From Sphingobacterium sp. UT-1RO-CII-1 (GTDB lineage: Bacteria; Bacteroidota; Bacteroidia; Sphingobacteriales; Sphingobacteriaceae), in the NCBI RefSeq assembly GCF_026711005.1, contig NZ_JAPPVJ010000005.1:1-64000 (forward strand): 64,000 bases of DNA. Direction: 5' to 3'. The translations under genes were made by a program, and so were the position numbers. Positions 1 to 54,433 of the stretch are shown here, one piece after another. Within the stretch, counting starts at the first letter, position 1; every line of letters begins with the position of its first letter. The notes under the pieces were generated by a model, which was given only the letters and a program-made list of their open reading frames with translations, made no database searches and was not told where the DNA came from.

Positions 1-3000
1 AACTAAGCACCTGCTGCAATGGCGAAATCCTCAGTTTCGCTGTTTTAGTACTAGCACCTGTATAGTTCTTACCACCATCCACTTTAACCGTAACCATATA
101 TTCGCCAGCATCGATATGATCGTTGTTACTATAGGTAGCCGTTAACCCAGCAGGAAGGTTTGTAATTATTAATGACTTCACTGTGCCATCGTAAACGAAA
201 CTAGCATCTGCAAAAATAAAGGCAGGCAATACCGCTTTCATAATCGTCAGCTTAGCAGTCTGCGAACCATTTTCATAGTTGTTGCCCCCATCAATAACAG
301 CTGTAACTGTATATTCCCCTGCTTCCGTCTGCTCGTTGTTCTGGCAGCTCACCTGTGTTCCCACTGGCAAGGCACCTGCAATAACTAAAGACTTCACAGT
401 ACCATCATAAACGAAACTAGCATCAGCAAAAGTAAACATCGGTAGGGTTGCTTTCTCAATCGTCAGCTTAGCAGTCTGCGAACCATTTTCATAGTTGTTG
501 CCACCGTCAATAATAGCTGTAACTGTATATTCACCGGCTTCTGTCTGCTCGTTGTTCTCGAAGCTCACCTGTGTTCCTACTGGCAAGGTACCTGCAATAA
601 CCAGAGATTTAACAGCACCATCGTAAGTAAAACTAGCATCAGCAAAAGTAACCCCTGCTATAGAAGCTTTCGTAATTAAAAACTTCGCCTTCTCATACTG
701 GATATTATAGTTTCTAGCTAGGAGGTTTACGTTGTTAATATCGTAGTCACCTACATCCTCACCCGCTACACGCGTTATGCTACCCGTAACTACCGAAGCA
801 TCATCCCCATTACGCAGATCTGAAGCTTTCACAGTATACGTCAATGCAGGGTCTGCATCACCATATACCTTCGTCTTCGCATCCGCTGTTACGGTAAGAT
901 TTGCTTTCGTGATACTCAGAGTTGATTGCTCATAGTTGACGGTGTAGTTATCTGCTGCGAGATCCACATTCGTAATATCGTAGCTGCCCACAGATTCGCC
1001 TACTGCACGTGTCAATGTACCGCTGACCACCGAAGCATCATCCCCATTACGTAGATCTGAAGCTTTCACAGTATACGTCAATGCAGGGTCTGCATCACCA
1101 TATACCTTCGTCTTCGCATCCGCTGTTACGGTAAGATTTGCTTTCGTGATACTCAGAGTTGATTGCTCATAGTTGACGGTGTAGTTATCTGCTGCGAGAT
1201 CCACATTCGTAATATCGTAGCTGCCCACAGATTCGCCTACTGCACGTGTCAATGTACCGCTGACCACCGAAGCATCATCCCCATTACGTAGATCTGAAGC
1301 CTTCACCGTATACGTCAATGCAGGGTCTGCATCACCATATACTTTGGTCTTCGCATCGGTTGTTACCGTAAGACTTGCCGGAACTATGGTTAATAACTGA
1401 TTCACAGATACCGCAGGCAAGTATTCATTGTTTCCAGCCTGAGCTGCTGTAATAGTCACCGTTCCAACCTTTTTCGCATCAACCTTCCATTTACCGCCAT
1501 CATTGTTGTCCTGATACACTTCGGCAATATCCGAGTCGGACGACACGAACGACACAGGTAGCTGTGATGTCGCCGAAGCTGTTAACACCACCGTTTGTTG
1601 TCCATAAGTTAGGTTGCCTAATGTTGCAAAACTTATGGTCTGCTCGCCCATCGTTTTTGCAGATGCCTGTGCTTCTGCACTACGATTGCCTACCTGGTCT
1701 ACTGCTACCAAAAAGAATTCAAAAGTTTTTCCGTTCGGCAGCCCGGTATACCCAAAGTTTTCCGTCCCTTTTAAGATCTCTGCTACATAAAAGGTTGAAC
1801 CGTCTTCACCTTTTACATAAAGTATATATTTTGCTAAATCCACTTCTGTATTGGCTTCCCAAAGCAGTGATATCTGCCCATTTTGCCCTATAGCCGTGAA
1901 ATTAGCTGGAACCGCTGGAGGTTTAGCATCCACTTTTACACCAGTGGTACTTCCTACCGAATTTAATGTCAGGTTTGCATCATTGCCTGCAGCATCTTTG
2001 ATTGCGCCACCATTCAATGATAAAGCACTTACGGTAATTCCATCATGGTCTTCCAGGCCGTTAATCACTACATAGCGGAACTCAAGAGCAGTGCTTCCGG
2101 AGCCAGATAGGTAATTAGCATAGACTGCCTGTCCCCCAATCGTAAGCGATAGTCCAGGCGTTCCTCCTGTCTTATTTACCAGCACAGCCTCCGAAAAGTT
2201 GACCGTAAAGTCCAAATTCTGATTCAGCAAGTAATAGCCATTGGCCGGCACAGCTACCGATGCTACTGTAGGTCGCACTCCATCTATCGCAATAGCATGT
2301 TGCCCAGCAATGGACTTCGGACCGCCAACCGTAGGCAAGGTCAATACCGCATCATCTCCAAAAGCATTTTTAATGGTAGCACCATTCAGTGATAGCGCAG
2401 TTGTAGATTGATAATCCAGATCGGGTGCTGTATCCCCTTCCTGTACCGTATAGCTAAATGTTAACGTATTAGTTCCAGTACCATTCATATAAATGGCCTC
2501 CCGGTCCACTGCCCCTGTTTCCAACAAAAGCCTAGGTGCATCTCCCATTGAATTCACTACCACCTGTTGATCGAAAGTCACGACCAGTGCAATTTCATCA
2601 CCTATTTTATAAGTTCCATCAGCCCTTGAAGCGCCTACGGAGACGACTTTCGGGTTGATCGGATTAACCGTAATAGCTATGGTATTTGTAGCAGTCTGTG
2701 ACCCTCCCGACCCCGTATTGCCTAAGTCATCTGTAGTTATTTGCAGCGAAGCAGGCCCATTATAACCTGGCGTCGGTTTAAATATCAAACCATTTAAAGC
2801 ATTATTAATAGCTACAATAGGTCCTGTCAAAGTCATGCTTGCATCATTTGTACCGCTCCCTATTGACACACTAAGTCCTGAAGTACCAAATAGTGTAATC
2901 AGGCCATTAGTAGCTGTTAAAGTAAGCTGGACAGCATTAGCACCTGCATCCACATCCGAAACAAAAATCTGGTTGTTATTTGCAGCGCTAAATACTAATG

Positions 3001-6000
3001 TAGCATCCTGATCAACAGATTGTGCTCCCGGCACGAAATTGATTGGTGCATCGTTTACAGCTGTAACCACTAGTGCAATCGTTTTAGTGTCTGACAATGC
3101 CGTCCCACCAGTGTGTCCGTTATCGTTAATAGATACCGTCAGTGTCACGTTACTCGTTGCGTTGCTTGCCGTGGTAAATGTAATAGCACCAGCTGCTACA
3201 AAAGTATTGATATCAGAAATTCTTCCATTAAGTGTCAAAACGCTGGCCGTTCCTCCCGCAGTGACACCCGTTCCTGATGTCGCACTGAGCATACCACTAG
3301 GCACAGAAAAAACAACTGTCACAGAATTTGTTCCTGCATCTACATCACTAAAACTTATTCCTGTAAGCGGAGATGGGGTATCTTCCGTTACGGCAATGCT
3401 CAGAGGCACGGTAACTACAGGTGCATCATTTACCGGATTAACGGTTAAATGCAACCATGCTGTGCCACACTTAGAAGGAACTCCATTATCGCACACTTGG
3501 TATCGTAAACTATCCCTACCCGCGTAATTCGCGTTCGGTGTATACGTAAAACTACCGTCCGCATTCAGGACTACCGTGCCGTTAACAGGCGTTATGACTA
3601 AGGATGCCATTAAGGCATTACCTTCAGGATCCGAATCGTTCGTTAACACATTGCCCGTTGCTGGTATATCTTCTGTCAACGTAACATAGTCATCTACTGC
3701 AACCGGCGCATCGTTGACTGCGATCACGGAGACAGTTTTCGTAGCGGCCACAGATTCCTGACCACTATCGTGTACTTTGAAGCTTATCGTACGGTTTGCT
3801 GTTGACGGATTTTGCGACGAGTTACTATATTTAACCGCACGCAAAGCCGCCTGCCATTGCGCCAAATTCGCCGTGGCTCCAGCGGAACTAAGTGTCAATA
3901 GCCCCGTTGCGCTATTGTACAGCGCTGCCGTTATATTACCCATTGTAGTCCCATTATTGGTAAATTCCAACACATCTTGTCCAAATTGGAAATTACCCGT
4001 AATCGCTACTGTTGCCGAGGCTAAGGTTCTATTATCTGGGTCAGAAACTATAAGAGCGTCATCTACTACAACCGCTGTTCCTTCGGTATATGTTGTATTG
4101 CCTCCGCTAGTGGTAACTATCGGCGCAACATTGACAGACACAATGGTTATAGTAGACGCTATCGATAGTGAAGTCACATCGGTACCACCATTCGCTGTGC
4201 CACCATTATCCTGTATAGAAGATAACGTTATAACACGGTTTGTTGTATTGAGATCAGTACTTATATTACGATAAGTTAGTCCGTTAACTATGCCCAACAT
4301 AATAGCCGGAGAGACTCCCCCGCTCTTACCTATCTCCACGGTCGTCGCCCCCCCACTTACTAAAACACCTACTGTAAGCCCATTTGTTCCTGTGGCCTGT
4401 GTGCCAGATACTAGGGGCACATCAGAGCCATCTATTGTCAATATCTCTTGATTACCATCTGACACATTAGCTACAGTAAACACCAGTTTACTTATTGCCT
4501 GCCCCGCTTCAATTGTACTTATAGCTGTTCCACTGAACAAAGAAACAGCAGCCCCGCCCTCTGTAAATGTCGGGTTTACTGCAGTAGCTATTAGCGTAGG
4601 TGCATCATTGACGGCCGTAATCTGTACAGTAACAATAGCTGGAGTACTTGTACCGCCATCGCCGTCATTAAGCGTTACGGCTATCGTACGTGCTGCTGTG
4701 GCAGGATCAGTAGTATTACTATTCGAATACGTCAGGTTACGGATTAATGCCCTCGCACTAGCCGGACCAGAATTAACATTAAAACTGATGACCAGATCGT
4801 TCGTTCCCGTTCCACCAGCCCAAGTACCTATAACCACGCCACCGTAAGTCACATGGCTACCCGATACCCCAATCTGCCCTGCTCCTGTTCCTTGATCACG
4901 AATGGAAAGAACATCTTCGTCGCTAACTCGATTAGCCGTAATGGCAACTTTCATATTTCCTCCGCTAAAATTAGGAGAATCCGAATCGGTTACCGTTGCA
5001 TTAGAACCAGCATCAATTAATACGGCAGTACCGCCCTCCATATATGTAACAGCATCTCCATCCAGGTTGCTGATTGTAGGTACTGCATTAAATATTGGAC
5101 ACAGACTTATATTATCCAAATCTACATACTGAAACGATCCACCAAGCTTAATTTCCAGTTCATCAATCACGGCTGAGGCATACGAGCCCAAATCAATAAA
5201 TGTATAACCATTATTGACAGAAGGATCTGTATTAAACCCTGTACTTTTCATTTGGGTGAATACAGGGGTTCCTGCCCGCTTCCCCGTTATAGTTACCGTT
5301 CCATTTGTAGCGAGTGTATTTCCAGATGCATCGTCCGATAGAAATAGATAGAAACTACCGACTTTGAATCCATTTGTACTCACCTTCCATGCCATCGGAT
5401 CTTGCCCCGTACCCGAAAGGTGAAAGCCTGAGCCATTAATCCCTCGTACAGGACTGAACTTTCTCACTTTCCAATTACCAGAAAGCTGGTACGTCTGTCC
5501 ATTATTCGAAAAGGAAGCTGCATTATCGGATTCTCCTTGGTCAAAATTTTCTATACTACATGGGCCTACAGCATGAGTTTCTCCAGCAGTAAAAGGGAGT
5601 GTCCCTACAATATTGCCAGTCATTGTGGCTATATCGGTCCCCGAATTTAGATGCAGCTTTAAAGTACCTTCTCCACTTATCGAGGCGATGCTTACCCTAT
5701 AGACGGTAGTCGATACAGGTGTAATATCGCCTACTACCCCCATAGCGCCAATCCCCGTAAGCGAGAAGTCATCGACACTTACGTTCTTCACAGGCTTATC
5801 AAACGTAACCAGGAAATTCATGGTCGTCGCAGATGAATTTGGCGATCCATCCACCACAATACTGGACACCTGCGCAGGCGCATTCGCATTCGTGCTATAA
5901 GGCGGCCCTGCCATAAACTGATCCAGGTAGATGTTGAGATCTGGTGCTTCTATCCGCACCTCATCGATGTCGTAAAAATCAGGATTACCCACAAAAGACT

Positions 6001-19442: not shown

Positions 19443-19550
19443 AGCCGTCTTCGACTTGTGCACGGATTTTTACAAGTAACATCACGTATTATTACAACCA
19501 AACTAGGACAAACCCTAACTACCTTTGGTGTATACCATTACATTAAAAAA

Positions 19551-20042
19551 ATGAAAGCACTAGCAGGCGATATTAACAAACATTTCAGGCAGCATCTGAC
19601 AATCTATCTAGACGCCCTGGCGGTGCTCTGTGCTGCTTTGCTGATCTATCTTTTTGTACAAACAGCTTTGAGCAAAGTATTGCACCATGCGGTGTTTCGC
19701 ATTCAGATGGGCAAGCAACCGCTCCCGGGCTGGTCAAAACCAATATTGGTTTATGCACTGCCGGTTATTGAGTGGGCGACGGTGCTGTTGCTCTTATTTA
19801 GGCGGACACGCCTTTGGGGGCTTCTGCTTGCAGGAACTCTGCTGTTTGCCTATACCATATATGCCTACCTGGCTTATAAAGAAGTGTATGGCTATGTGAT
19901 TTGCGCGTGCGGGAAAGTGTTTGAAGATATGGGCTGGCGCGAGCACTTTTATTTTAACGCCATACATACGCTGGTGGCGCTGGCAGGGTTTTATTGCGTT
20001 TATAAAAGCAAAACATTAAAAGCAAACAACAAGAAAGAATAA
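19551..20042 (+). CDS. MauE/DoxX-like membrane protein
   Basis: From the ATG at 19551 the protein has 163 residues and four membrane helices. The pattern of an ALSKVLHH motif after the first helix, then LPVIEW in the second, then a CACGKVFEDMGWREHFYFN loop resembles MauE-type redox-associated proteins, which handle disulfide or quinone electron transfer. The two closely spaced cysteines in CACG support a redox role. The longer open frame starts at a GTG at 19458 but adds a poor N-terminus. It is followed by the DUF6520 gene after a structured leader. Confidence 0.8.
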   Translation: MKALAGDINKHFRQHLTIYLDALAVLCAALLIYLFVQTALSKVLHHAVFRIQMGKQPLPGWSKPILVYALPVIEWATVLLLLFRRTRLWGLLLAGTLLFAYTIYAYLAYKEVYGYVICACGKVFEDMGWREHFYFNAIHTLVALAGFYCVYKSKTLKANNKKE

Positions 20043-20251: not shown

Positions 20252-20593
20252 ATGAAAAAGCTCATTAAACTTGTGCCTGCGATGGCACTACTATTAGCAT
20301 TAGGTGTTTACACGGTAAACGCTAAAATGAAAGCAGCTGTTGCGGAAAAGACGCAAACGGAGAAAGAATGGATGTTGAAGCCAGGAGGTAATCTAACGGA
20401 CCCAACTGATTATGAACAAGCTTCTGCCGGACGGTTTGAAGATTGTGTAGCAACTAATACATCTGTATGTGCAATTAAGGCTCCTGCCGATCCAAACAAT
20501 CCGAATATCCCACTCTTTAGTGATCAGATACAAACTGCACTTGAAAGTGATTTAAATCATCCGGATATCAGCACAGGCCCTTATAATCCTTAA
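20252..20593 (+). CDS. DUF6520-family secreted peptide
   Basis: The 113-residue protein has a signal peptide (MKKLIKLVPAMALLLALGVYTVNA) and a short mature part with exactly two cysteines ten residues apart in EDCVATNTSVCAI, typical of DUF6520, a Bacteroidota family often found beside MauE-like proteins. The cysteine pair could be a substrate for the neighbouring redox protein (inference). It ends just before a strong bidirectional terminator. Confidence 0.8.
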   Translation: MKKLIKLVPAMALLLALGVYTVNAKMKAAVAEKTQTEKEWMLKPGGNLTDPTDYEQASAGRFEDCVATNTSVCAIKAPADPNNPNIPLFSDQIQTALESDLNHPDISTGPYNP

Positions 20594-20647: not shown

Positions 20648-22000
20648 TCAACGATGATTCTGTGGCATACCACTTATTTGTATCACCGAAAAAGGCAACA
20701 TAAAAGTATACCGATCATCTCCAGGAATCAATTCATAACGATCATCCAATTTTCGAACCAATATCTTAGCAAAACGAGGATCCTGATTGAGCCTTCTTAG
20801 ATCCGACCATCGAATCCCTCCTCGAAAAAGCAATTGTTTTTCACGTTCCTCCAAAATAATCGTCAATAGATCATCATTCGACGCCAATTGCATTGGTACA
20901 AACCTATCCTTTTGCCAACGTTTTGACAATAATCGATTCAATACTTCCAGTGCCTTTTGTTCCCTTCCCAACCGAGCTAAGCATTCGGATTTTATTAAAT
21001 ATAATTCATCTATTGCTATACCACTGAATAATGCGTAATTACCTCCATCATAAGAACCTTTAAAACGAAAAAGACCAGTATCATCCGCTTTTAGAAAAGC
21101 AGTTTTCCGAAGGTCATACTCATTATATTTCTTAACCAAAACGGTATCTACAAATGCGTATCCCTGCTCATGGACACCAGATCTTGCCAACATAACAGCA
21201 TGAAAAACAACATCTTTATTGAATACTTTGAACGGAATATCTGAATCCCGATCTACGTCATTATAATCTAACAAAACATCATTTATATCAAGACTATTCT
21301 CCGTATAATACAACGATAGTTCAAAATCGCCCATAATTAAGTACAACTTCGCTAGGGCTCCTAGGGCTGCAGCACGTGATGGACGAGTCGGAACCCCAAC
21401 TCTATCCGGCAATAATTCAGCCGCACGCTCTAAATCATCAATTATGCGAGAATACGTTTCATGAACCGTAGACCTAACAACCGGCTCATTGATATCCGAC
21501 ACCAGTTGAAGGGGTAAGCCATATTCTGAATCTGCCATCCCCTTTGCATAATACGGCACATACAACTGGGCTAACTGGAAATAACTCCACCCCCGATAAA
21601 AATAAGCACGTCCTTTAATGATATCTCTGTCAGCTTCTGTCATACTTCCTAGTTTAGCCTTGTCTATTTCGTCCAAAACGACATTACAATGGAATATACG
21701 TTGAAAGGAATAGTTCCAATCTAAGTGATTCTGGGCATTAATATCCCATATATATGTCATACGCGCATCAATGTCACGTGAGTCCCAATCTGCTTTGCTC
21801 AAGAAATAGTAATCTGCCCCAATATCACCGGCTGCAGGATATTGCATATTGAAGACATTTTCATAGTCAAGTAGCGCCTGCAAATCCTGTACATTATCCG
21901 GAACCGTAAGTGAATCATCCGGCTTTACATCTAGATAATCCGAGCATGCCACGAAAGTATATAGCACACTGAATGACATCACAAGTAGTAGATTTTTCAT
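20648..22000 (-). CDS. RagB/SusD-family nutrient-uptake lipoprotein
   Basis: The 450-residue protein has a lipoprotein signal with lipobox FVAC before SDYLDVKPDD, the classical SusD start, TPR-like helices with GRAYFYRGWSYFQLAQLY near residue 130, and a C-terminal SusD domain (LLFRGGIRWSDLRRL). It is the surface-exposed lid that captures substrate for the SusC porin encoded immediately upstream (five-base gap). The substrate is not evident; no glycoside hydrolase is adjacent. Confidence 0.93.
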   Translation of the reverse strand: MKNLLLVMSFSVLYTFVACSDYLDVKPDDSLTVPDNVQDLQALLDYENVFNMQYPAAGDIGADYYFLSKADWDSRDIDARMTYIWDINAQNHLDWNYSFQRIFHCNVVLDEIDKAKLGSMTEADRDIIKGRAYFYRGWSYFQLAQLYVPYYAKGMADSEYGLPLQLVSDINEPVVRSTVHETYSRIIDDLERAAELLPDRVGVPTRPSRAAALGALAKLYLIMGDFELSLYYTENSLDINDVLLDYNDVDRDSDIPFKVFNKDVVFHAVMLARSGVHEQGYAFVDTVLVKKYNEYDLRKTAFLKADDTGLFRFKGSYDGGNYALFSGIAIDELYLIKSECLARLGREQKALEVLNRLLSKRWQKDRFVPMQLASNDDLLTIILEEREKQLLFRGGIRWSDLRRLNQDPRFAKILVRKLDDRYELIPGDDRYTFMLPFSVIQISGMPQNHR

Positions 22001-22005
22001 AATAT

Positions 22006-25000
22006 TTAAAAATTAGCGTTTAAACCAATAGACCAAGATTTAGGTAAAGGCAACTGTGCGACATCTGGGTCAAGATTATGCTTATTTGCCCGCCATATCA
22101 CCCCTAGGTTTCGGGCATAAAACGTAGCTCTTATATTTCTAAGTGGCTTAATCCCATTTCTTAAAAACGTATACGATAGATTAATATCTTGGATACGTAT
22201 ATGGTCTCCTCGCTCTACCGTAACCTCTGCGTTTCTATAAAACTCGTCACGTCTGGTATTCGTGGGATAGATCATTGAAGGAACAGTGGTGTACCTTTCA
22301 TCCCCCGGTTGTTGCCATCGTTCGTTAAAATCGCCGTGTTCAACCTGGCCATTAGCGGTCAGGAGGTTTGAATAATTAATAGTCTGTCTGCGGAAATAAT
22401 AATTTGTACGATAGGCGATATTCATGGATACAGAAACTCCTTTCCATTCAATGGTATTCCGAAAAGCTCCGAAAAACTCTGGAAGTGCCGACCCATGAAA
22501 AACGAGATCGTTTTTTGTGACCTGCTGGTTCAACAAGCTGTAATCTTTTGTTTCCACCCCTTCCAAATATCCTATTGGGTCTCCGGTTTCGGGATCGAGT
22601 CCTCCCCAGCGATAACTAACAACCGAGTATGCTGGCTCTCCTTCAATAGGAGATACGGAGGAACCTGTACCGACCCATTGGCTAAATCGCGTAGGCTCGA
22701 GCATGTATTTTTCTATACGATTTCGGTTTAAAGACATCAGCAAAGTACCAGACCAATGCGTATTTCCCAGCTTGGTGTTGCTGTTCAACGTCAAGTCTAC
22801 TCCTGTATTTTTTATTATCGCACTGTTCATGCTCAAAGATCCAAACCCCGTCGTTGGGTCAGTCTCCACCAAACTAACCAGATCCGTCGCCGTTTTCCGA
22901 TAGAATTCGATGCTTCCCGCTAATACATTATTTACAAATCCAAAATCGAGTCCCAGATTAAATGTTCCTATTTTCTCCCATCGCAATTCAGCATTCGGTG
23001 GATTCATTACAACCGCATAAGGATACCTACCCAATCGGCTTGTTCCGTAATATTGCAGCGTCGTTACCGCGGCAACATCATTCCTAACATTTCCACTATA
23101 CCCATAGGTTGTCCTGACCTTAAGTCTCGGTATTAGATTCGAGTGATAGAACTCTTCTTCCCCTATGTTCCATGCACCTCCGACCGACCAAAGTGGAGAC
23201 CATTTGTCATTTGTAGCAACCCCAAATAAATTTGAAGCATCTTTACGTGCGCTTACGGAGAGCGTATATTTTTTCTTATATGTATACGAGCCGTTGCTAT
23301 AGGCAGAAACAAACCTTTGTGTACCACCGAATGCCCTGTCTGAAAATATAATGGTAGACGCTCCCGCTAAGTTATCATAAATAGGTAGCCGGTTTACGTA
23401 ATCTACGCGGTTGGTCGTCTGTAGGTCATCGTCGTACCCATACAGTCTTGTATTGTTTCCCTCATTTCTTGCATGCCGAATTTCCATTCCGATAATTGCA
23501 GCGATACTATGGTTTGCCCAATCCTTCGTATAATTTATTTGCCCTCTAAACGACTGCGCTTTTAGTTCAGACTGACTTCGATCTAATATACCCCCCAATG
23601 GAATCGGTCGTATAATACCGTTATCTGCTACTTGAGTAAAGCGGTTTATCAGATCTCTAGTATAATAGGTATCCTCGCTGTAAAATTGACGCCCAAAAGA
23701 AGGTTCGTGTTCGTATTGATAATAGACTTCTCCAGTCAGATCTGCTAAAAATCGATATTTCAAATTGGTACTGAACAACAGGTTGCTTCCGGTTGTCGTA
23801 TTATCAGCGAGGTGCAGCTCATCGTAGGGTCGGTACCGCCAATCCAACAACCCTCCTCTTTCATCAACTTCATCGAGGTAACTGTTCCGATAATCTTTGG
23901 TCACTGCCAACGCCTGCCCATATTCGTCTACAAATTCGGCATAAGGGTACATACCTTTGGCAGCAGACATTTGTATATTGCCGAGGTGGTTATTGGTTCC
24001 AAAAAGCATCGAATAACGTATACCTGTACTCAAATCCAGCCGTGGAGTAAGTCTGAATGTATTCTGTATGTTAAGGTTGATTCGACGAAAATCATTTCCT
24101 ACTAACGTGCTTCTATTATGATCGTATCCAGCGGAAAATAACGTGGTATAGTTTTCTCCCCCTCCATTTAGGCTGAAAGAATACTGCTGGTTTATACCGG
24201 TACGATAAAAATGATTGCTTAGATCTTTTCTGATATCCTGCTCACGAAAATAATCTAACTTATTTTTTAGCGTTGTTTCACTTATTTCTCCACGAGTATG
24301 TTCATCAAGGAGTTCGATTACAGGCGTCAGCGGAGGCCTATTTGTCGTATTTGCTAACATAGAGGTGAAAGCGCCCTGTTCGTACAGAAACTGCTCGATA
24401 TCGATAAAATCGCTGGTAGACATGCGTGGCATATAATAGAGATCGGGTTTCTCTTGGATGGTACTGTTAGCATGAACGGAAACCTGCCACGGCGCTTTAT
24501 ATTTTCCTTTTTTTGTCGTAATTACCAGCACTCCATTCCCTGCTTTCGCGCCCCATATACTTGCCGCCGCCGCATCCTTTAAAAGGGTCACACTTTCCAC
24601 ATCATTGGGATTAATACTATTGATATCTCCCTCAAACGGAAAATTGTCCAAGACAATCAAGGGTGCCCCTTGTATGGCGCTCAGCGACGATACCCCTCTG
24701 ATCACCATCCGTTGTTCGGCTCCAGTTCGCTTGTCAAACAAAATTGATGGCATTATCCCGTCCAATCTGCTGATTACATCTGTACCGATCTGCCGGTTGA
24801 AAAGCTCAGCGTTTACGACTTCAAAAGAACCGGTAGCCCTTTCCTTGGGAATACTTTGGTACCCTGTATTGACTGTCACTTCTTCCAGTACATTATCTGC
24901 CGGCTTCAGCGTGATGGTCACAACTGTATCTTTATCGATTTTCATATTTACATGGAGAGGATCAAACCCGATTCTTCTCATTGTCATCTGATATTCGGGT

Positions 25001-25212
25001 CTCCTCGGTAGGACTAATTCAAACATTCCATCCTTATCTGTTGTATATATCCGCTGTATGTCCTTCACAGAGATCGTGACACCAGGTACCGGCGCACGGT
25101 CTATTTCATCGACAGCTTTCCCCGAAAGCCGCACAACACCCTGTTGGGCAAAGGCTCCTTTTAAGACTAGGAAAATCGCGCCTACCAACACTAATAATTT
25201 CCCCTGTCTCAT
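22006..25212 (-). CDS. SusC/RagA-family TonB-linked outer-membrane protein
   Basis: The 1068-residue protein has a signal peptide, a carboxypeptidase-regulatory-like beta-sandwich (about residues 28-108), the plug domain with VTLLKDAAAASIWGAKAGNGV near residue 205, and a 22-stranded barrel ending with the aromatic NANF terminus. It imports large nutrients using TonB energy. Its start overlaps the TlpA gene stop by four bases, and SusD follows, so TlpA-SusC-SusD form one operon. Confidence 0.95.
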   Translation of the reverse strand: MRQGKLLVLVGAIFLVLKGAFAQQGVVRLSGKAVDEIDRAPVPGVTISVKDIQRIYTTDKDGMFELVLPRRPEYQMTMRRIGFDPLHVNMKIDKDTVVTITLKPADNVLEEVTVNTGYQSIPKERATGSFEVVNAELFNRQIGTDVISRLDGIMPSILFDKRTGAEQRMVIRGVSSLSAIQGAPLIVLDNFPFEGDINSINPNDVESVTLLKDAAAASIWGAKAGNGVLVITTKKGKYKAPWQVSVHANSTIQEKPDLYYMPRMSTSDFIDIEQFLYEQGAFTSMLANTTNRPPLTPVIELLDEHTRGEISETTLKNKLDYFREQDIRKDLSNHFYRTGINQQYSFSLNGGGENYTTLFSAGYDHNRSTLVGNDFRRINLNIQNTFRLTPRLDLSTGIRYSMLFGTNNHLGNIQMSAAKGMYPYAEFVDEYGQALAVTKDYRNSYLDEVDERGGLLDWRYRPYDELHLADNTTTGSNLLFSTNLKYRFLADLTGEVYYQYEHEPSFGRQFYSEDTYYTRDLINRFTQVADNGIIRPIPLGGILDRSQSELKAQSFRGQINYTKDWANHSIAAIIGMEIRHARNEGNNTRLYGYDDDLQTTNRVDYVNRLPIYDNLAGASTIIFSDRAFGGTQRFVSAYSNGSYTYKKKYTLSVSARKDASNLFGVATNDKWSPLWSVGGAWNIGEEEFYHSNLIPRLKVRTTYGYSGNVRNDVAAVTTLQYYGTSRLGRYPYAVVMNPPNAELRWEKIGTFNLGLDFGFVNNVLAGSIEFYRKTATDLVSLVETDPTTGFGSLSMNSAIIKNTGVDLTLNSNTKLGNTHWSGTLLMSLNRNRIEKYMLEPTRFSQWVGTGSSVSPIEGEPAYSVVSYRWGGLDPETGDPIGYLEGVETKDYSLLNQQVTKNDLVFHGSALPEFFGAFRNTIEWKGVSVSMNIAYRTNYYFRRQTINYSNLLTANGQVEHGDFNERWQQPGDERYTTVPSMIYPTNTRRDEFYRNAEVTVERGDHIRIQDINLSYTFLRNGIKPLRNIRATFYARNLGVIWRANKHNLDPDVAQLPLPKSWSIGLNANF

Positions 25213-26684
25213 TGCCGCCCCCTTTCTTTTTTAAGGACATAGCCATATCTCGTCAGAACAAGTTCAGGCACCTCTATATCCAGTTCATGTATTGGCCGGT
25301 CTGCAACAACAAACATTTCCATCATGTGGTTCTCTATCTGCACGTCAAATCCCTGTTGTTGGAATGTCTCTTTCAATAGCTCGATATCCCCTAATCTTTC
25401 CGGCAGATCAACATCGATTCTATAGTTTATTCCGGTTGAATCGATAACGCAGGGAAAAACCTCATTATATTGGTTATTTAAGTAATTTACGATATTATCG
25501 ACCTTGGCCCCCATAAAGTAAGTATTTGCTCCCGATGGGGAATTACCGACATACTTAGGCGGATTCGACTGAAGTTCGCCGTTTTGTACCAGCTTTAAGG
25601 TGGTCTTCGATTCGGATACCTGCGCACCTGGTTGTTTGCGAATTATCAGACTCGGCATTTCCTGTTCTATATAGCCCGCATAATAACCAGTGAAAAGCGC
25701 CATATCATCCAGCATTTTATCTTTGATTTGGTCCGCACTCCATTCAACCGGAAGAGCGTATTCGTAACTTATACTGAACTGCTCCCGATCAAAAGGAACC
25801 TCCCGATTGTAATAGAAATCAAGTCTCGAAGAATCCGCTGTAGCCATTATCCGCCGATTGGGCCTCATGGCGTCGAACCTTTTTCTTGGCGCAGCGATCT
25901 GAAGAAGTTTAAGTATTGCGTAATTAATATAATTTCCTTTTTTTGCAGACGATATAACATCTGTGTATTCCCGGTTCGAGATTTCAAAGCCGTCCATATA
26001 TCCACTTATCGTAGTATAATAGGTGGGCCTATATGCCCTCAGATCAGTATACGTATCCGATAGAATTGTTGTATCCAGTTTTCCCCGATAATCAGGCAAG
26101 TAATATTCTTTTCCCACCGCTATACTTAAAAGGGCTTCCTTGTCCAAAAGATGGGGCTTAGTCGATTGCTCCAAGATGCCCGCTGGATTGATGATCGCTA
26201 TATGTGGAATAGTTCGATGTGGGATGAGGTCGGCCAGACTGGCCCCATCAACAATAGTATAAAAACGTTCTCCTAAACTTTGTATCGTTTTGGAACCCGT
26301 TGTTGACAGATATTTTGTAATAAGTGATTCTTCCTGCCTCGTTACCGGCAACAATACAACCTCATTTGGCATTTCCTCAACAAGCTCATGCATTTTCGGC
26401 ATGCTCAGGATGCAACCTGCACACCAAGTAGCCCAATAGTCCAATATGATCACCTTCCCACGATAGTCGGCTAGGCGAATTTCTTTGGTCTTCCCACCAT
26501 ATTCTACCACCTGCAAAGGCATATTCCATATTTCCTCAGGGATGGTATCCCCTATTTCTAAAGGCTTGATCTCCCCTATCTCAGTTGCCCCGCCTTGGCG
26601 GAGCTCCTGAGCCTTTGCTTCTACTATAGAAGCAAAACTAAACAACACACAAAATATCGCTATAAGCTGTAAGCCATAGGCCAT
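25209..26684 (-). CDS. TlpA-like thioredoxin with C-terminal DUF3738-like domain
   Basis: I choose the ATG at 26684 (491 residues), directly before a signal-peptide-like segment (LIAIFCVLFSFASIVEA). The open frame extends to 27476, but that extension crosses the 11-bp repeat array and reads as non-coding. Residues 50-170 are a TlpA-type thioredoxin with WATWCAGC (Cys88 and Cys91). The C-terminal part (VNYLNNQYNEVFPCVIDSTG, YRIDVDLP) resembles DUF3738. It probably acts in the periplasm as a thiol-disulfide oxidoreductase associated with the SusC/SusD pair encoded just downstream; the DUF3738 role is unknown. Confidence 0.85.
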   Translation of the reverse strand: MAYGLQLIAIFCVLFSFASIVEAKAQELRQGGATEIGEIKPLEIGDTIPEEIWNMPLQVVEYGGKTKEIRLADYRGKVIILDYWATWCAGCILSMPKMHELVEEMPNEVVLLPVTRQEESLITKYLSTTGSKTIQSLGERFYTIVDGASLADLIPHRTIPHIAIINPAGILEQSTKPHLLDKEALLSIAVGKEYYLPDYRGKLDTTILSDTYTDLRAYRPTYYTTISGYMDGFEISNREYTDVISSAKKGNYINYAILKLLQIAAPRKRFDAMRPNRRIMATADSSRLDFYYNREVPFDREQFSISYEYALPVEWSADQIKDKMLDDMALFTGYYAGYIEQEMPSLIIRKQPGAQVSESKTTLKLVQNGELQSNPPKYVGNSPSGANTYFMGAKVDNIVNYLNNQYNEVFPCVIDSTGINYRIDVDLPERLGDIELLKETFQQQGFDVQIENHMMEMFVVADRPIHELDIEVPELVLTRYGYVLKKERGRQ

Positions 26685-26909
26685 AGGTCTTTTAATATCG
26701 TCAGCTCTTTCTTTATCAAGCAGAAAACTATCCGCTTCATTTAAGCCGTTTTGAGGGCTCCTTTTATTTTTGACTAGCATAGGCTCCACTTTACCCCTAG
26801 CCTCATCGTAAAACGAATGAAACCACCTTGAAATCAATCGATTCATATGCAGACCATTCATCATCTTCCCGTCATGGCAAGCAAAACGTGGCAGTCTATT
26901 CATCAGTCC

Positions 26910-27108
26910 TTCGAGTCGTGTTCGGGAGTTGTTCGACAATCCTTCGAGTGCTCTTCGACAGTCCTTCGACTGGGCTTCGAGTCGGCTTCGACACTTGTTC
27001 GACAATCCTTCGGGTGCTCTTCGACAGTCCTTCGACTGGGCTTCGAGTCGCACTCGAACAGCACTCGAACAACACTCGAACAGCAGTCGAACACCAGTCG
27101 AACAAATG
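26910..27108. repeat. Array of eighteen 11-bp units carrying TCGA, exactly phased
   Basis: TCGA (TCGG in two units) begins at 26911, 26922, 26933 and then every 11 bases without exception up to 27098. The first thirteen units read TTCGA and the last five TCGAA, so orientation switches at about 27048. Units 3-7 are repeated almost exactly as units 9-13, a 66-bp higher-order repeat. Because 11 is not a multiple of three, all frames rotate through the array and remain open, which explains the artificial long reading frames here. Confidence 0.95.
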
Positions 27109-27897
27109 TGCACCAAAGTACGACCCAATCTCGAAGCCATGCCGAACACCCCGGCTACCCTAGCCGAAGCGGTCTTAGTGTATGGCCTAAGTATTCTCCA
27201 AGTATGCGTGAAGTAGTAACAGTGTATAAGGAGTGTATTAAAAGACATTACATTAGCCATGCTCCATGATGGCTTCATAACTGCCTGGTTCTTGCCTCTC
27301 CCACCTTCGCCAGTTGTCCCGCGGGCGCGGGACTTCTGAACATAACAACTAAACTGATAATAAATTTTGCTGAGAGACAGCAATAAACATTGAAAGCTAT
27401 TTAGAGATAAGTAATATCTTTTCCTTATAGGTTTTTCTAGGGCATAACAATCCCCTTTGCGTAAAAATCGCATCATAATTATTCGGTTTTTAAATCATTA
27501 TTTAAAAAATTAGAAAAAAACCGACCTCCCTACCCATGCAAAAAGCATAGGTAACGATATATATTTTGGAATAATAGAAAATCAAGCTATCTTTAAAGTG
27601 CGAAATAAAAATAAACCGATTATTATTAACCCAAAAACAAGGTACACCATGTTTTAGTTGGAAAGTCGGTAAACAGGTCTATCAGGACAGTTCAAACTCC
27701 CTTTTGGCTTTTGAGCTGACAATTGGGTATTATTTAATACCAATAATGCCCCAAACTGTAGAAATGGCTTACGCCCCTCCCCTTTTATACCTGTATTATT
27801 TTAGCACAGCTTAGTCCGGAGGACAGCATACGTTCTTTATCAAAATGGAATAGGAAAACCATAGGCTACGATCCTTGATCGTGTCTGGGTGGTTCTG
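27109..27897. other. Leader/promoter-side region of the TlpA operon with inverted repeats
   Basis: No credible gene. Notable structures are an 8-bp GC-rich inverted repeat at 27316-27333 (GTCCCGCG, GG, CGCGGGAC), a 9-bp stem at 27531-27553 (TACCCATGC with GCATAGGTA), and an imperfect stem near 27723-27745. The promoter of the minus-strand TlpA-SusC-SusD operon should be in this stretch. Confidence 0.45.
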
Positions 27898-28332: not shown

Positions 28333-28992
28333 ATGAACAAGCACTTCAGCCAAATATTTATAACAAATATTAAAGAGTTAAGAGTATCACTAAAAATTAC
28401 AGAAGCAGGGATGGACTACTTGCTTCAAAAATATAATTTGATTTACACAGGTAATGAAAAGCAATCCAAGGGAAGTATTTCTTTAGATCTAGCTAAACGA
28501 GTATCTGATCTATTCGGAAAAGATATCGAATATTTTCTTAATAAAGATTCCGTTTTGATAAGTGAAGATAATCTCCCCACAGAAACACAATTTTTTTTAA
28601 CCAATACATTACCATACATGCTAAATGCTGAGCAGGACAAAGATGAGAAATTAAGCATTTACGCTTATACAATAGTGTATCTAAAATATTATAATAACAA
28701 TAAAACAAAATTTGTTAATTCAGAGATCTTGCCATTTTTACCGGCTCCATTGAATAAGTCAACATCAATTGATTGGTCAGGCGGTCTATTGAAAGGACTG
28801 GCTACTAACACAAAAACATATAAAAAGAATCCTCTTATACCAGATCCACGCAACCGAGGAGAAGCTTACTACCAATTAAATGGTCCAATACCGACGGAAA
28901 CTGTCGATAAAGCTCTAAAGAAAGTTAATATAGCTCTTTTGGAGAAAGCTATCAATTTGGCACTAAAAAAGATGGAAGAAAAAGAGGAATAA
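28333..28992 (+). CDS. HTH (Cro/C1-like) protein, unknown
   Basis: The 219-residue protein has an N-terminal region with a weak Cro/C1-like helix-turn-helix pattern (IKELRVSLKITEAGMDYLL and SISLDLAKRVSDLFGKDIEYFL) and an acidic, helical C-terminal part with no recognised domain. It may regulate the nuclease gene that follows. After the TAA stop the same frame continues open for 22 codons (ELLKKAMKNIDKEWIKEFEEN), suggesting the gene may once have been longer. Confidence 0.6.
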   Translation: MNKHFSQIFITNIKELRVSLKITEAGMDYLLQKYNLIYTGNEKQSKGSISLDLAKRVSDLFGKDIEYFLNKDSVLISEDNLPTETQFFLTNTLPYMLNAEQDKDEKLSIYAYTIVYLKYYNNNKTKFVNSEILPFLPAPLNKSTSIDWSGGLLKGLATNTKTYKKNPLIPDPRNRGEAYYQLNGPIPTETVDKALKKVNIALLEKAINLALKKMEEKEE

Positions 28993-29149
28993 GAATTACT
29001 AAAAAAGGCTATGAAGAACATCGACAAAGAATGGATAAAGGAATTTGAAGAGAACATTTAAAAATCTGATAGCCCTAGAAAACTTAACTATCACTATTCA
29101 AGCATAAAACTTAGTTATTACTAAGCAAATAATTTTCAACACAACTCAC

Positions 29150-30697
29150 ATGGCGAAAACTAACTTAGATGCTATAATTCCTCGAGAAGATTTTGAAGTT
29201 GTAGGCACTCAAAACTCTACTAATCTCTTTAATAGCATTTCGATAACTAGTATTACTAGTGGACTATTCTATCCTTTTCTCAGAAAGCCAGATTTTCAAA
29301 GAGAGACAAACGAATGGGATGCAAAAAAAATAGCAGAGTTTATTGAGAGCTTTATAAATGGAGAGCTTATTCCCGCAATTATTCTTTGGAGAAATAATGC
29401 AGGATTATATTTTGTAATTGATGGAGCTCATAGATTGAGTGCTCTTATTAGCTGGATAAAAGATGATTACGGAGATGGTGAAATATCAAAGAAGTTTTAT
29501 GGAGACAGCTTAAGCGATGATCAGAAGGAAATTGCTGAGAGAACAAGAAAATTAATAAATAAGAAGATGGGTAAATTTCAGGATATTGCAAATGCTACAA
29601 ATGCTGATAATCCAGACCCAGCTATTCTAAAAAAAGCGATGAATTTAGGAGCTTATTCAATTGATGTCCAATGGGTAAATGGAGACGCCCAAAAAGCGGA
29701 AAAATCATTTTTTAAAATTAACCAACAACCATCAAAAATTGACCCAACAGAATTCAAAATACTTGAATCTCGAAAAAAAGGAAACTGTATTGCGGCGAGA
29801 GCTATTATAAGAGCAGGAGAAGGTCATAAATACTGGTCAGATTTCTCAGCAAACAAACAAAGTGAAATACAAATAATTGCAAAGGAAATTCATGAAATCC
29901 TTTTCAACCCAACCCTTAAGACTCCTGTCAAAACTCTCGACATACCAATCGGAGGAAAAGTAATGTCAGCACAAGCATTGCCATTAATCTTAGAATATGT
30001 AAATATGGTTAACAAAATAGGTGTCAATTTTGCAGATGAACTGCAAGACGACCAGACGGGGGATTCAACATTATCATATCTCAAAAATGCTAGAAAACTT
30101 GCTTGGCGTATTAATAGTGTACACCCATCTTCCTTAGGCTTACACCCAATCGTATATTTTTATTCTATCGATGGCAAACATAAACCTGCTTCATTCTATT
30201 TTACATTAGCTTTTATTCTAGAGCTAGAAAGAAAAGGTAAATTCAATGATTTCATAAAGGTAAGAGCGAAATTTGAGGAATTCATCTTAAATTATGATTA
30301 CTTAATACAACAAATTACACGTAAATATCGAAGTGCCTTTTCGGCGATACCGCACGTTACAGACTTTTATATGCAAATCATAAAAAAATTATTAGAAAAT
30401 AAAACAACAGAAAAATCTATAGAAGAACTTGTAAAAGAAGAAAACTTCAAATATCTAATACTAAATCAATTTGCTGAACACAAATCATCATTTATAAATT
30501 TTACTACAGAAACAAAATCCGAAATTTTTATACGCGAAGCTTTAAAAATTGGTTTAAAGTGTAAGATATGCAACGGATACATCCATAAAAACTCGATTTC
30601 AATCGATCATATTCAACGGGTTGAAGATGGAGGTAAGGGAGAGCCTGAAAATGGACAGCTTACCCATCCCTATTGCAACACAACTTTTAAGAATTGA
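29150..30697 (+). CDS. DUF262-type (ParB-fold) protein with C-terminal HNH nuclease
   Basis: The 515-residue protein starts with a DUF262/ParB-like domain carrying the signature VIDGAHRLSALI (89-100) after PDFQRETNEW, followed by a helical middle, and ends with an HNH nuclease (CKICNGYIHKNSISIDHIQ, then NGQLTHPYCN). This layout resembles GmrS/D-like modified-DNA nucleases, in which the DUF262 part hydrolyses nucleotide and the HNH part cuts DNA. After its TGA stop the same frame stays open for about 23 codons with a plausible helical tail, so the C-terminus may have been shortened by a nonsense mutation. Confidence 0.8.
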   Translation: MAKTNLDAIIPREDFEVVGTQNSTNLFNSISITSITSGLFYPFLRKPDFQRETNEWDAKKIAEFIESFINGELIPAIILWRNNAGLYFVIDGAHRLSALISWIKDDYGDGEISKKFYGDSLSDDQKEIAERTRKLINKKMGKFQDIANATNADNPDPAILKKAMNLGAYSIDVQWVNGDAQKAEKSFFKINQQPSKIDPTEFKILESRKKGNCIAARAIIRAGEGHKYWSDFSANKQSEIQIIAKEIHEILFNPTLKTPVKTLDIPIGGKVMSAQALPLILEYVNMVNKIGVNFADELQDDQTGDSTLSYLKNARKLAWRINSVHPSSLGLHPIVYFYSIDGKHKPASFYFTLAFILELERKGKFNDFIKVRAKFEEFILNYDYLIQQITRKYRSAFSAIPHVTDFYMQIIKKLLENKTTEKSIEELVKEENFKYLILNQFAEHKSSFINFTTETKSEIFIREALKIGLKCKICNGYIHKNSISIDHIQRVEDGGKGEPENGQLTHPYCNTTFKN

Positions 30698-30773
30698 AGA
30701 AATAAGTACGACAATAAGCTAATCCAAGAGTTTGAACATTTGCTAAATAAATATATAACCAATTGATAAAACC

Positions 30774-31301
30774 ATGTTAAAAGACGTACTTACCAAAAAC
30801 CTTGATGTAGTATTTTGCGGAACCGCAAAGGTAAAAGCATCAGCATTAAAAGGGTTCTATTATGCTGGACCAGGAAATAAATTTTATAGTGTATTACATA
30901 CCGTAGGGTTGACTCCTGCTAAGTTGGAGCCAAAAGATTGTTATGATATAAACAAATACAATATTGGTCTAACCGATTTAGTACATAATGAATACGGTAA
31001 CGACAACCAAATTTCTAGCGAAAACTATGATGTAACGGGGTTTATTGCAAAAATTGAAATGTTTCAGCCAAAGTACATCGCTTTTAACAGCAAGAAAGCA
31101 GCATCATTTGTACTGGGGTACCAAGGTATTACTAGCCTGGTAAACTATGGGCTTCAAAAAAAGAATATAGGACAATCAAAACTTTTTGTACTCCCATCCA
31201 CCTCTGGAAGTTCTAGGCGATACTGGGATGAGGGGTATTGGTTTGAATTGAAAAAGTTGATAGATCAGGAAAGGGTTAGTACTCCGTCCCTCCTTTTGTG
31301 A
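30774..31301 (+). CDS. Mug/TDG-like mismatch uracil-DNA glycosylase family protein
   Basis: The 175-residue protein has the G/U-mismatch glycosylase layout: VVFCGTAKVKASALKGFYYAG with catalytic-loop-like residues, then GNKFYSVLHTVGL, and VLPSTSGSSRRY near the end in the position of the DNA-insertion loop. Compared with Mug, the first motif has GTAK in place of GINPG, so specificity may differ. It sits between the HNH nuclease and the Cas2-like gene, suggesting recognition of modified or deaminated bases in a defence setting (inference). Confidence 0.72.
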   Translation: MLKDVLTKNLDVVFCGTAKVKASALKGFYYAGPGNKFYSVLHTVGLTPAKLEPKDCYDINKYNIGLTDLVHNEYGNDNQISSENYDVTGFIAKIEMFQPKYIAFNSKKAASFVLGYQGITSLVNYGLQKKNIGQSKLFVLPSTSGSSRRYWDEGYWFELKKLIDQERVSTPSLLL

Positions 31302-53793: not shown

Positions 53794-54071
53794 TAAACAC
53801 CTTTTAAAGCCTTTTCTAACTCGGCCTTGGTTAAAGAAAGTTTACTACAGATATCAGCAACACTAAATCCCAGTTCTTGCAACATCTCGATTTTTCCTTT
53901 AAGAATGCCAGAAGCCATACCTTTCTCAAGGCCAGAAGCCATTCCGGTGGCTATTCCTTTCTCAAGTCCGGTAGCCAGACCTTTCTTAAGCCCACTAGCC
54001 ATTCCGGCTTGCATCCCCTTATCGAGTCCCTCTTTTTTTGCCTTATCCAGTAAATATTCACGAGTTCCCAT
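53793..54071 (-). CDS. Stand-alone copy of the Rpn C-terminal domain (RpnS-like)
   Basis: The 92-residue protein begins MGTREYLLDKAKKEGLDKGM, exactly as the internal start of the full Rpn gene next door, and ends in the same GFSVADICSKLSLTKAELE motif. It has its own Shine-Dalgarno sequence, AGGAAGGAG, seven bases before the ATG. It carries eleven four-residue units (GLDK, GMQA, GMAS, GLKK ...) against nine in the full-length gene. In E. coli the separately translated RpnS domain blocks the Rpn nuclease, so this is probably a duplicated inhibitor. Confidence 0.85.
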   Translation of the reverse strand: MGTREYLLDKAKKEGLDKGMQAGMASGLKKGLATGLEKGIATGMASGLEKGMASGILKGKIEMLQELGFSVADICSKLSLTKAELEKALKGV

Positions 54072-54178
54072 GATAATACTCCTTCCTAAATTTTGATGAT
54101 AGTGTTTATATTATATGGCCATCAAGAGCCCTTCGGGGTTAATTTCTATTTCTTGTTCAAGTTCACAATAAACCTTCA

Positions 54179-54433
54179 CTAAACACCTTTTAAAGCGTTT
54201 TCTAACTCGGCCTTGGTTAAAGAAAGTTTACTACAGATATCAGCAACACTAAATCCTAGTTCTTGCAACATCTCGATTTTTCCTTTAAGAATGCCAGAAG
54301 CCAGACCTTTCTCAAGGCCGGTAGCCATACCTTTCTCAAGGCCAGTAGCCATTCCAGTAGCCATTCCGGCTTGCATCCCCTTATCGAGACCCTCTTTTTT
54401 TGCCTTATCTAGTAAATATTCACGAGTTCCCAT
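54179..54433 (-). CDS. Internal RpnS-like small gene within the Rpn gene
   Basis: The in-frame ATG at 54433 is preceded by a strong ribosome-binding site AGGAAGGAG with a seven-base spacer (TATTATC), identical to the one of the stand-alone copy at 54071. The product has 84 residues: MGTREYLLDK, nine four-residue units, and the conserved end. This matches the gene-within-gene arrangement described for Rpn toxin-antitoxins. Confidence 0.75.
   Translation of the reverse strand: MGTREYLLDKAKKEGLDKGMQAGMATGMATGLEKGMATGLEKGLASGILKGKIEMLQELGFSVADICSKLSLTKAELENALKGV

Follow-up and report, generated by a model that had tools for sequence, protein, structure and literature searches.

Why should short words recur at exact 11-bp intervals in front of a receptor operon, and is such an array constrained as DNA, as RNA or as protein? 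The question is raised by an array at 26910–27102 in a stretch of 64,000 nucleotides from Sphingobacterium sp. UT-1RO-CII-1 (contig NZ_JAPPVJ010000005.1), referred to below as the window.

The array, its operon and its recurrence

Eighteen units were found by direct reading and by a scan, 13 of TTCGR (TTCGA or TTCGG) followed by 5 of YCGAA (TCGAA). Their spacing is exactly 11 bp in 17 of 17 steps, and the cores span 26911–27101. The 13 TTCGR-N6 units lie at 26910–27046 on the forward strand (YCGAA on the gene strand) and include a 66-bp duplication of six units, which is frame-neutral and is reported by Tandem Repeats Finder as 2.2 copies with a 92% match. The 5 inverted units lie at 27054–27102 on the reverse strand (TTCGA on the gene strand), and the 11-bp TCGA register is unbroken at the switch. 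The 18 TCGA or TCGG units, the period without slip, the orientation switch and the duplication had all been described in a sequence-only reading of the window and are confirmed here. A three-unit pattern matches the 64-kb window 14 times against 0.01 expected from dinucleotide shuffles, which excludes chance. The lag-11 autocorrelation reaches 0.69 at the array, and other lags from 7 to 14 stay at or below 0.49 everywhere in the window. The phase also extends past the limits first noted for the array. Outlying TTCG units at 27168, 27146 and 27135 (27131–27168, reverse strand) keep the same 11-bp phase with intermediate units missing in places, and a second 11-bp-phased block with the word ATAC follows at 27180–27241 (reverse strand), conserved in the leaders of S. 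paucimobilis and S. tabacisoli. Elsewhere in the window, 216- and 237-bp tandem repeats with 86–97% match at 170–1378 probably belong to a large repeat protein, and 12-, 24- and 60-bp tandem repeats (CCAGTAGCCATT-type) are found at 53913–54367.

The array had been described as lying upstream of a TlpA-SusC-SusD operon. The association holds, and the position has to be amended: the array sits inside an open reading frame of 755 amino acids (25209–27476, reverse strand), which consists of a leader extension continuing in frame into a TlpA-like thioredoxin protein (AhpC-TSA/Redoxin, by Pfam/NCBIfam). The leader part runs from an ATG at 27476 to a signal-peptide-like start, MAYGLQLIAIFCVLF, at 26684 on the reverse strand. 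An A/T-rich inverted repeat (27483–27524) lies immediately upstream of the leader ATG. A SusC/RagA TonB-linked outer membrane protein (22006–25212, reverse strand; TIGR04056, E 4.6e-150) and then a SusD-like protein (20648–22000, reverse strand; PF14322) complete a SusC/RagA-SusD operon. Beyond it, a small protein convergent to the operon (20252–20593, forward strand) has a weak DUF6520 match below the Pfam cut-off, and a MauE-like membrane protein is encoded at 19458–20042 (forward strand; PF07291, E 6e-24).

The array is present seven times at 95–100% identity in the 4.5-Mb genome, together with one diverged intergenic copy. In each of the seven it forms the core of a cassette of about 1 kb that is 85–99% identical across the loci, the leader part showing this identity with the six other operons. 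An alignment of the seven places the cassette limits at about 175 bp upstream of the leader ATG and at the signal peptide, and both flanks drop to background identity. Each cassette precedes a tlpA/susC-susD operon, whose first gene encodes TlpA at five loci and SusC at two, followed by SusC and SusD. The operon genes beyond the cassettes are just about 31–59% identical between loci. Such leaders are missing from 30 other SusC genes of the genome, upstream of which the median open stretch is 17 codons and the lag-11 signal is faint or absent.

The sequence-only reading had mentioned similar repeats in related genomes, and the searches bear this out. Within the genus, 23 of 61 genomes carry GTAC arrays of the same 11-bp period. 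Of 251 genomes of the family, 20 have arrays of five TTCGA units, spread over 4 of 25 genera, and none has the reversed pattern; counts outside the searched patterns are lower bounds. A perfect array of four TTCGA units is absent from most Sphingobacterium species. The CATG pattern with four units was found in 0 of 61 genomes, so that at this stringency CATG is not a separate array type. Among 198 genomes from across the class, a single one contains five GTAC units, in the form of a simple tandem repeat, and GTAC arrays therefore appear to be mostly confined to Sphingobacterium. We fetched 20 of these array loci with their flanks, and 16 of the arrays lie inside a reading frame that continues as TlpA or SusC, with SusC and SusD genes behind it. 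With the seven loci of the genome itself, the link with tlpA/susC/susD operons is strong and extends across species. The array belongs to a type of tlpA/susC-susD operon leader that recurs, is restricted in lineage and is constrained in both phase and frame.

A reading frame kept open through the leader

At each of the seven loci the gene-strand reading frame opens at a conserved ATG (MMRFLRKGD), crosses the array and continues into TlpA or SusC, with no stop in 7 of 7 copies. The indels that separate these seven close copies are multiples of 3. We extended the comparison to the periodic part of 28 leaders from 10 or more species and several genera. Frame 0 contains 0 stops in 6170 codons, and frames 1 and 2 contain 329 and 381. 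Since 11 is not a multiple of 3, every word passes through all three frames, and this contrast is internally controlled. To be noted, these loci were chosen by array pattern and then by reading frame, so that the fair in-frame fraction is 16 of 20 among the newly fetched loci and not 28 of 28. A stop triplet directly 3' of GTAC is found in 20 of 120 off-frame units and in 0 of 47 in-frame units. Furthermore, among 183 leader substitutions, counted as minority states, there are 0 nonsense codons against 8.1 expected by random placement (p ~3e-4). The frame is conserved against stops, as expected of a translated leader, and we infer that the leader is probably translated. The array had been said to cause false long reading frames, which is wrong for the gene strand, where the long frame is the conserved one.

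An open frame may be kept for its product. A real N-terminal protein domain, in which the extension of 250–600 residues would be functional and the 11-bp repeat would encode an 11-residue repeat of 33 bp, is in keeping with the openness of every leader and with indels in multiples of 3 among the close copies of the genome. The substitution pattern speaks against it. Leader substitutions are spread evenly over the codon positions, for example 33/26/32, whereas the TlpA body of the same pair gives 182/133/288, the usual third-position excess. Together with the zero stops, the even positions indicate that openness is kept and amino-acid identity is not. In addition, the extension has no Pfam or NCBIfam match, a signal-peptide-like segment would lie deep inside the protein, and a period of 11 bp, not only of 33 bp, cannot arise from selection at the protein level. 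We regard a protein domain as highly improbable. Length differences between leaders are mixed with respect to multiples of 33 bp: the net difference of 198 between L333 and L338 and one gap of 33 between L336 and L337 fit, other gaps do not, and gap placement is poor, so that these differences carry no weight here. The array does not fit a contingency (phase-variable) tandem repeat either, in which nearly identical units vary in number and shift the frame; the spacers are diverged, 18 units are present in 7 of 7 copies and every leader is in frame.

Phase, cores and folding

Whole leaders are 11-periodic, with a lag-11 identity of 0.35–0.44 compared with about 0.25 for other lags and for gene bodies. 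They are built of blocks that differ in their word, namely TTCGR/YCGAA, ATAC, GTAC(T), CATG, GGAACA and ACCCAA. In 30 scanned arrays the core-to-core steps are 11 bp in 376 cases, 22 bp in 22 and 33 bp in 12, and just 10 are off-phase. The order of blocks is TTCGA then TCGAA in 24 of these arrays; four have a single orientation, two an extra stray unit, and none the reverse order alone. The orientation switch is therefore a general rule of such arrays and no peculiarity of this copy. One related leader, L338, lacks most of its TTCG block, which shows that this block is not indispensable.

Between species the cores differ at 8 of 95 positions and the spacers at 60 of 142; within the genome the numbers are 0 of 95 and 8 of 142. 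This is selection on the cores rather than on the spacers, as the suggested binding sites predict. Conserved cores, diverged spacers, even codon positions and the open frame together point to a constraint that acts on the nucleic acid and in addition keeps the frame open. As in a phased binding array, the cores are conserved, the spacers free and the phase constant; this phase is 11.0 bp, whereas a turn of relaxed B-DNA takes about 10.5 bp. On B-DNA, sites placed every 11 bp therefore drift by about 17 degrees per unit and by about 300 degrees over 18 units. The proposal that the period would line up a bound factor on one face of DNA is therefore doubtful, because an exact spacing of 11.0 bp would leave one face of relaxed B-DNA. 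The exact period fits underwound DNA, A-form or double-stranded RNA, or a protein with its own pitch.

A rival reading is a structured, translated RNA attenuator, whose self-complementary cores (UCGA, GUAC) would fold the transcript and whose structure would be opened by ribosomes translating the leader, coupling operon expression to translation or termination. The predicted folding of the array RNA is strong (−89 kcal/mol, z −2.7; other strand −88 kcal/mol, z −3.9, both against dinucleotide shuffles). Inverted arms of 58 nt are 71% complementary, TCGA and GTAC are self-complementary and among the most enriched phased words, and a turn of an A-form helix is 11 bp. The spacers tell against it. 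When they are permuted, most leader arrays give z values of about −0.9 to +2.1, with L085 (z −1.4 to −2.2) as the exception; the spacers thus add nothing to folding in most leader arrays, and a specific RNA duplex is disfavoured. Pairing of spacers is present in some intergenic relatives (L084, z −5.4; L093, z −3.7), and copies from rumen Bacteroidales are nearly perfect palindromes. Pairing at the level of hexamers was not seen in most leader arrays, and the two halves of the window array do not match at the bases that flank their cores. The cores themselves are invariant and thus uninformative on compensatory change. Moreover, single-strand folding needs no fixed 11-nt period, and an Rfam search of the leader gave nothing of note and no family match. 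Taken together, we consider such an attenuator somewhat unlikely. At the leader end near the signal peptide, a perfect hairpin of 12–13 bp was observed in L325 and L337, ACAAATCAATGCC...GGCATTGATTTGT in one and CAAAGCCATACC...GGTATGGCTTTG in the other, at the same place with wholly different self-complementary sequence.

Neighbours, a possible control role and known systems

A divergent gene (28333–28992, forward strand) starts 857 bp upstream of the leader ATG of the window. It is XRE/Cro-like by position and by eye and has no significant Pfam match. Such a gene is found at nearly all of the 26 leaders with enough flank and is absent at L038; its distance to the leader ATG is mostly 500–860 bp (range 240–1763). 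For single proteins the XRE/HTH calls are weak and partly made by eye, with Pfam E values of ~1e-4 to 0.2 that miss the cut-offs; the window copy gave no match. As a reader of the array, the XRE-like regulator is disfavoured; one array is common to loci with diverged regulators. Behind the regulator of the window, a profile match identifies a GmrSD_N and HNH protein as defence-like cargo (29150–30697, forward strand). The genes behind the XRE-like genes are varied, and many match defence or toxin–antitoxin families: GmrSD-like (window), UG5-nitrilase reverse transcriptase, NsnA, AbiP-like and DUF1016/YhcG proteins, and further NsnB/AAA_15, Fic, UvrD-like helicase, Gp49/HigB-like, PIN and GIY-YIG. 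Such matches were noted within 28333–31301 of the window and in the flanks of L031, L033, L034, L089, L326, L331, L335, L336, L339 and L342. This distribution suggests a defence hotspot beside these operons. Near one cassette, a small peptide bearing a double-glycine-type leader and CAAX-protease-like membrane proteins (by eye) are bacteriocin-like (L038:3166–3438 and 2151–5061).

Not all arrays belong to leaders. About 10 intergenic loci without such operons were found in one Sphingobacterium MAG (Lapin-020 bin49; G006 loci L090–L098), in which the central switch step is often 10 or 21 bp instead of 11 or 22 bp. MAGs of rumen Bacteroidales, Prolixibacteraceae and others (L099–L178) contain many short intergenic TTCGA 11-mer palindromes in all gene orientations, nearly perfect in RUG737 and RGIG5008. 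Diverged TTCGA arrays at L032:6827–7061 and L079:6004–6238 adjoin a DUF6266 gene whose copies in two species are 97.7% identical. An apparent change of word at an orthologous intergenic site between species was dropped, the flanking genes not being homologous.

These copies bear on a different origin, in which a dispersed repeat family, mobile or merely amplified, would have landed in leaders and would now act chiefly as a homology anchor. By recombination, the near-identical ~1-kb cassettes would swap upstream regulators and defence cargo or downstream receptors and would homogenise the copies. The cassette identity that is lost on both sides, the intergenic arrays of other genomes, many Bacteroidales MAGs among them, the varied defence-like cargo adjoining the leaders and the DUF6266 gene shared between species are what such a history would leave. 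Against it, the core/spacer contrast, the strict phase and the stop exclusion seen across species require that the sequence itself be under selection. In addition, neither a transposase nor a recombinase gene was noticed at the array, and the alignment of the seven cassettes shows no target-site duplications. We judge the anchor improbable as the main role.

The leader looks like a control element rather than a chance repeat. Our main reading, to which we give a probability of just under one half, is that the array forms the centre of a leader that regulates, in cis, a family of tlpA/susC-susD operons linked to XRE-like genes in Sphingobacterium and related genera. The phased cores would be the assembly platform for a putative factor, which probably oligomerises along DNA or nascent RNA and so would gate transcription into the operon. 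How neighbouring subunits sit relative to one another would be set by the 11-bp spacing, and the inverted halves, TTCGA then TCGAA, would make the platform symmetric. Ribosomes translating the leader may trail the polymerase and prevent Rho-type termination or displace structure. The divergent XRE-like gene probably controls the promoter; since the seven loci combine one array with different regulators, its product is unlikely to be what reads the array. Against the main reading weigh the arrays at intergenic sites without such operons, the lack of a perfect array of four TTCGA units in most Sphingobacterium species, the reduced TTCG block of L338, the weak XRE calls and a period that does not fit relaxed B-DNA.

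More tentatively, and from sequence comparison, we suggest that this may be a control leader of a new kind: the first gene is fused to a long 5' extension that would be translated over its full length, and the successive 11-bp-phased blocks of this extension (TTCGR, ATAC, GTAC, CATG, ACCCAA) would be read by a putative factor at the level of nucleic acid. A helical-phase code and an open frame would then share one sequence, which would mark XRE-linked receptor loci that also collect anti-phage genes. If true, phylogenetically restricted receptor operons use a layer of control undescribed in the open literature searched, with a sequence bound by helical phase and reading frame at once. The 11-bp-phased leader and the XRE-like gene also provide a sequence handle for variable receptor loci and nearby anti-phage genes in Sphingobacteriaceae. 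For annotation, a purely regulatory leader would mean that first-ATG models of TlpA and SusC carry hundreds of residues that are maybe not protein domains.

The open-licence literature on 11-bp repeats, Sphingobacterium repeats, DUF6520 and SusC/TlpA leaders contains no description of such an element, and several known systems resemble it in part. Phased operator and iteron arrays have short repeated cores at helical spacing with free spacers. The array is alike in its cores and spacers, but it lies inside an open leader frame, its word changes by block, its orientation inverts midway and its binder is putative. Translated leaders and attenuators place an open sequence with strong predicted RNA structure before structural genes. 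Openness and structure are shared, whereas here 250–600 codons without a stop are fused to the first gene and are 11-nt periodic. The genome-wide A/T periodicity of about 11 bp in bacterial DNA is a weak statistical AA/TT bias linked to the DNA helix (PMC4132750, PMC516772). The period is alike; here G+C-containing words keep exact phase over 200–1300 bp at defined loci. PARCEL repeat elements are palindromic tandem repeats inside coding sequence that encode a conserved amphipathic repeat of 25 residues (PMC2996958). The leader array also lies within coding sequence, but its amino-acid sequence is not what is conserved. REP and BIME elements are likewise dispersed in several copies per genome, have inverted halves and are often intergenic. 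Their palindromic unit is 20–40 bp, extragenic and of high copy number; the arrays described here are 80–250 bp of 11-bp units, occur in open leader frames (28 leader copies) and stand as 1-kb cassettes before one operon type. PARCEL and REP are different elements.
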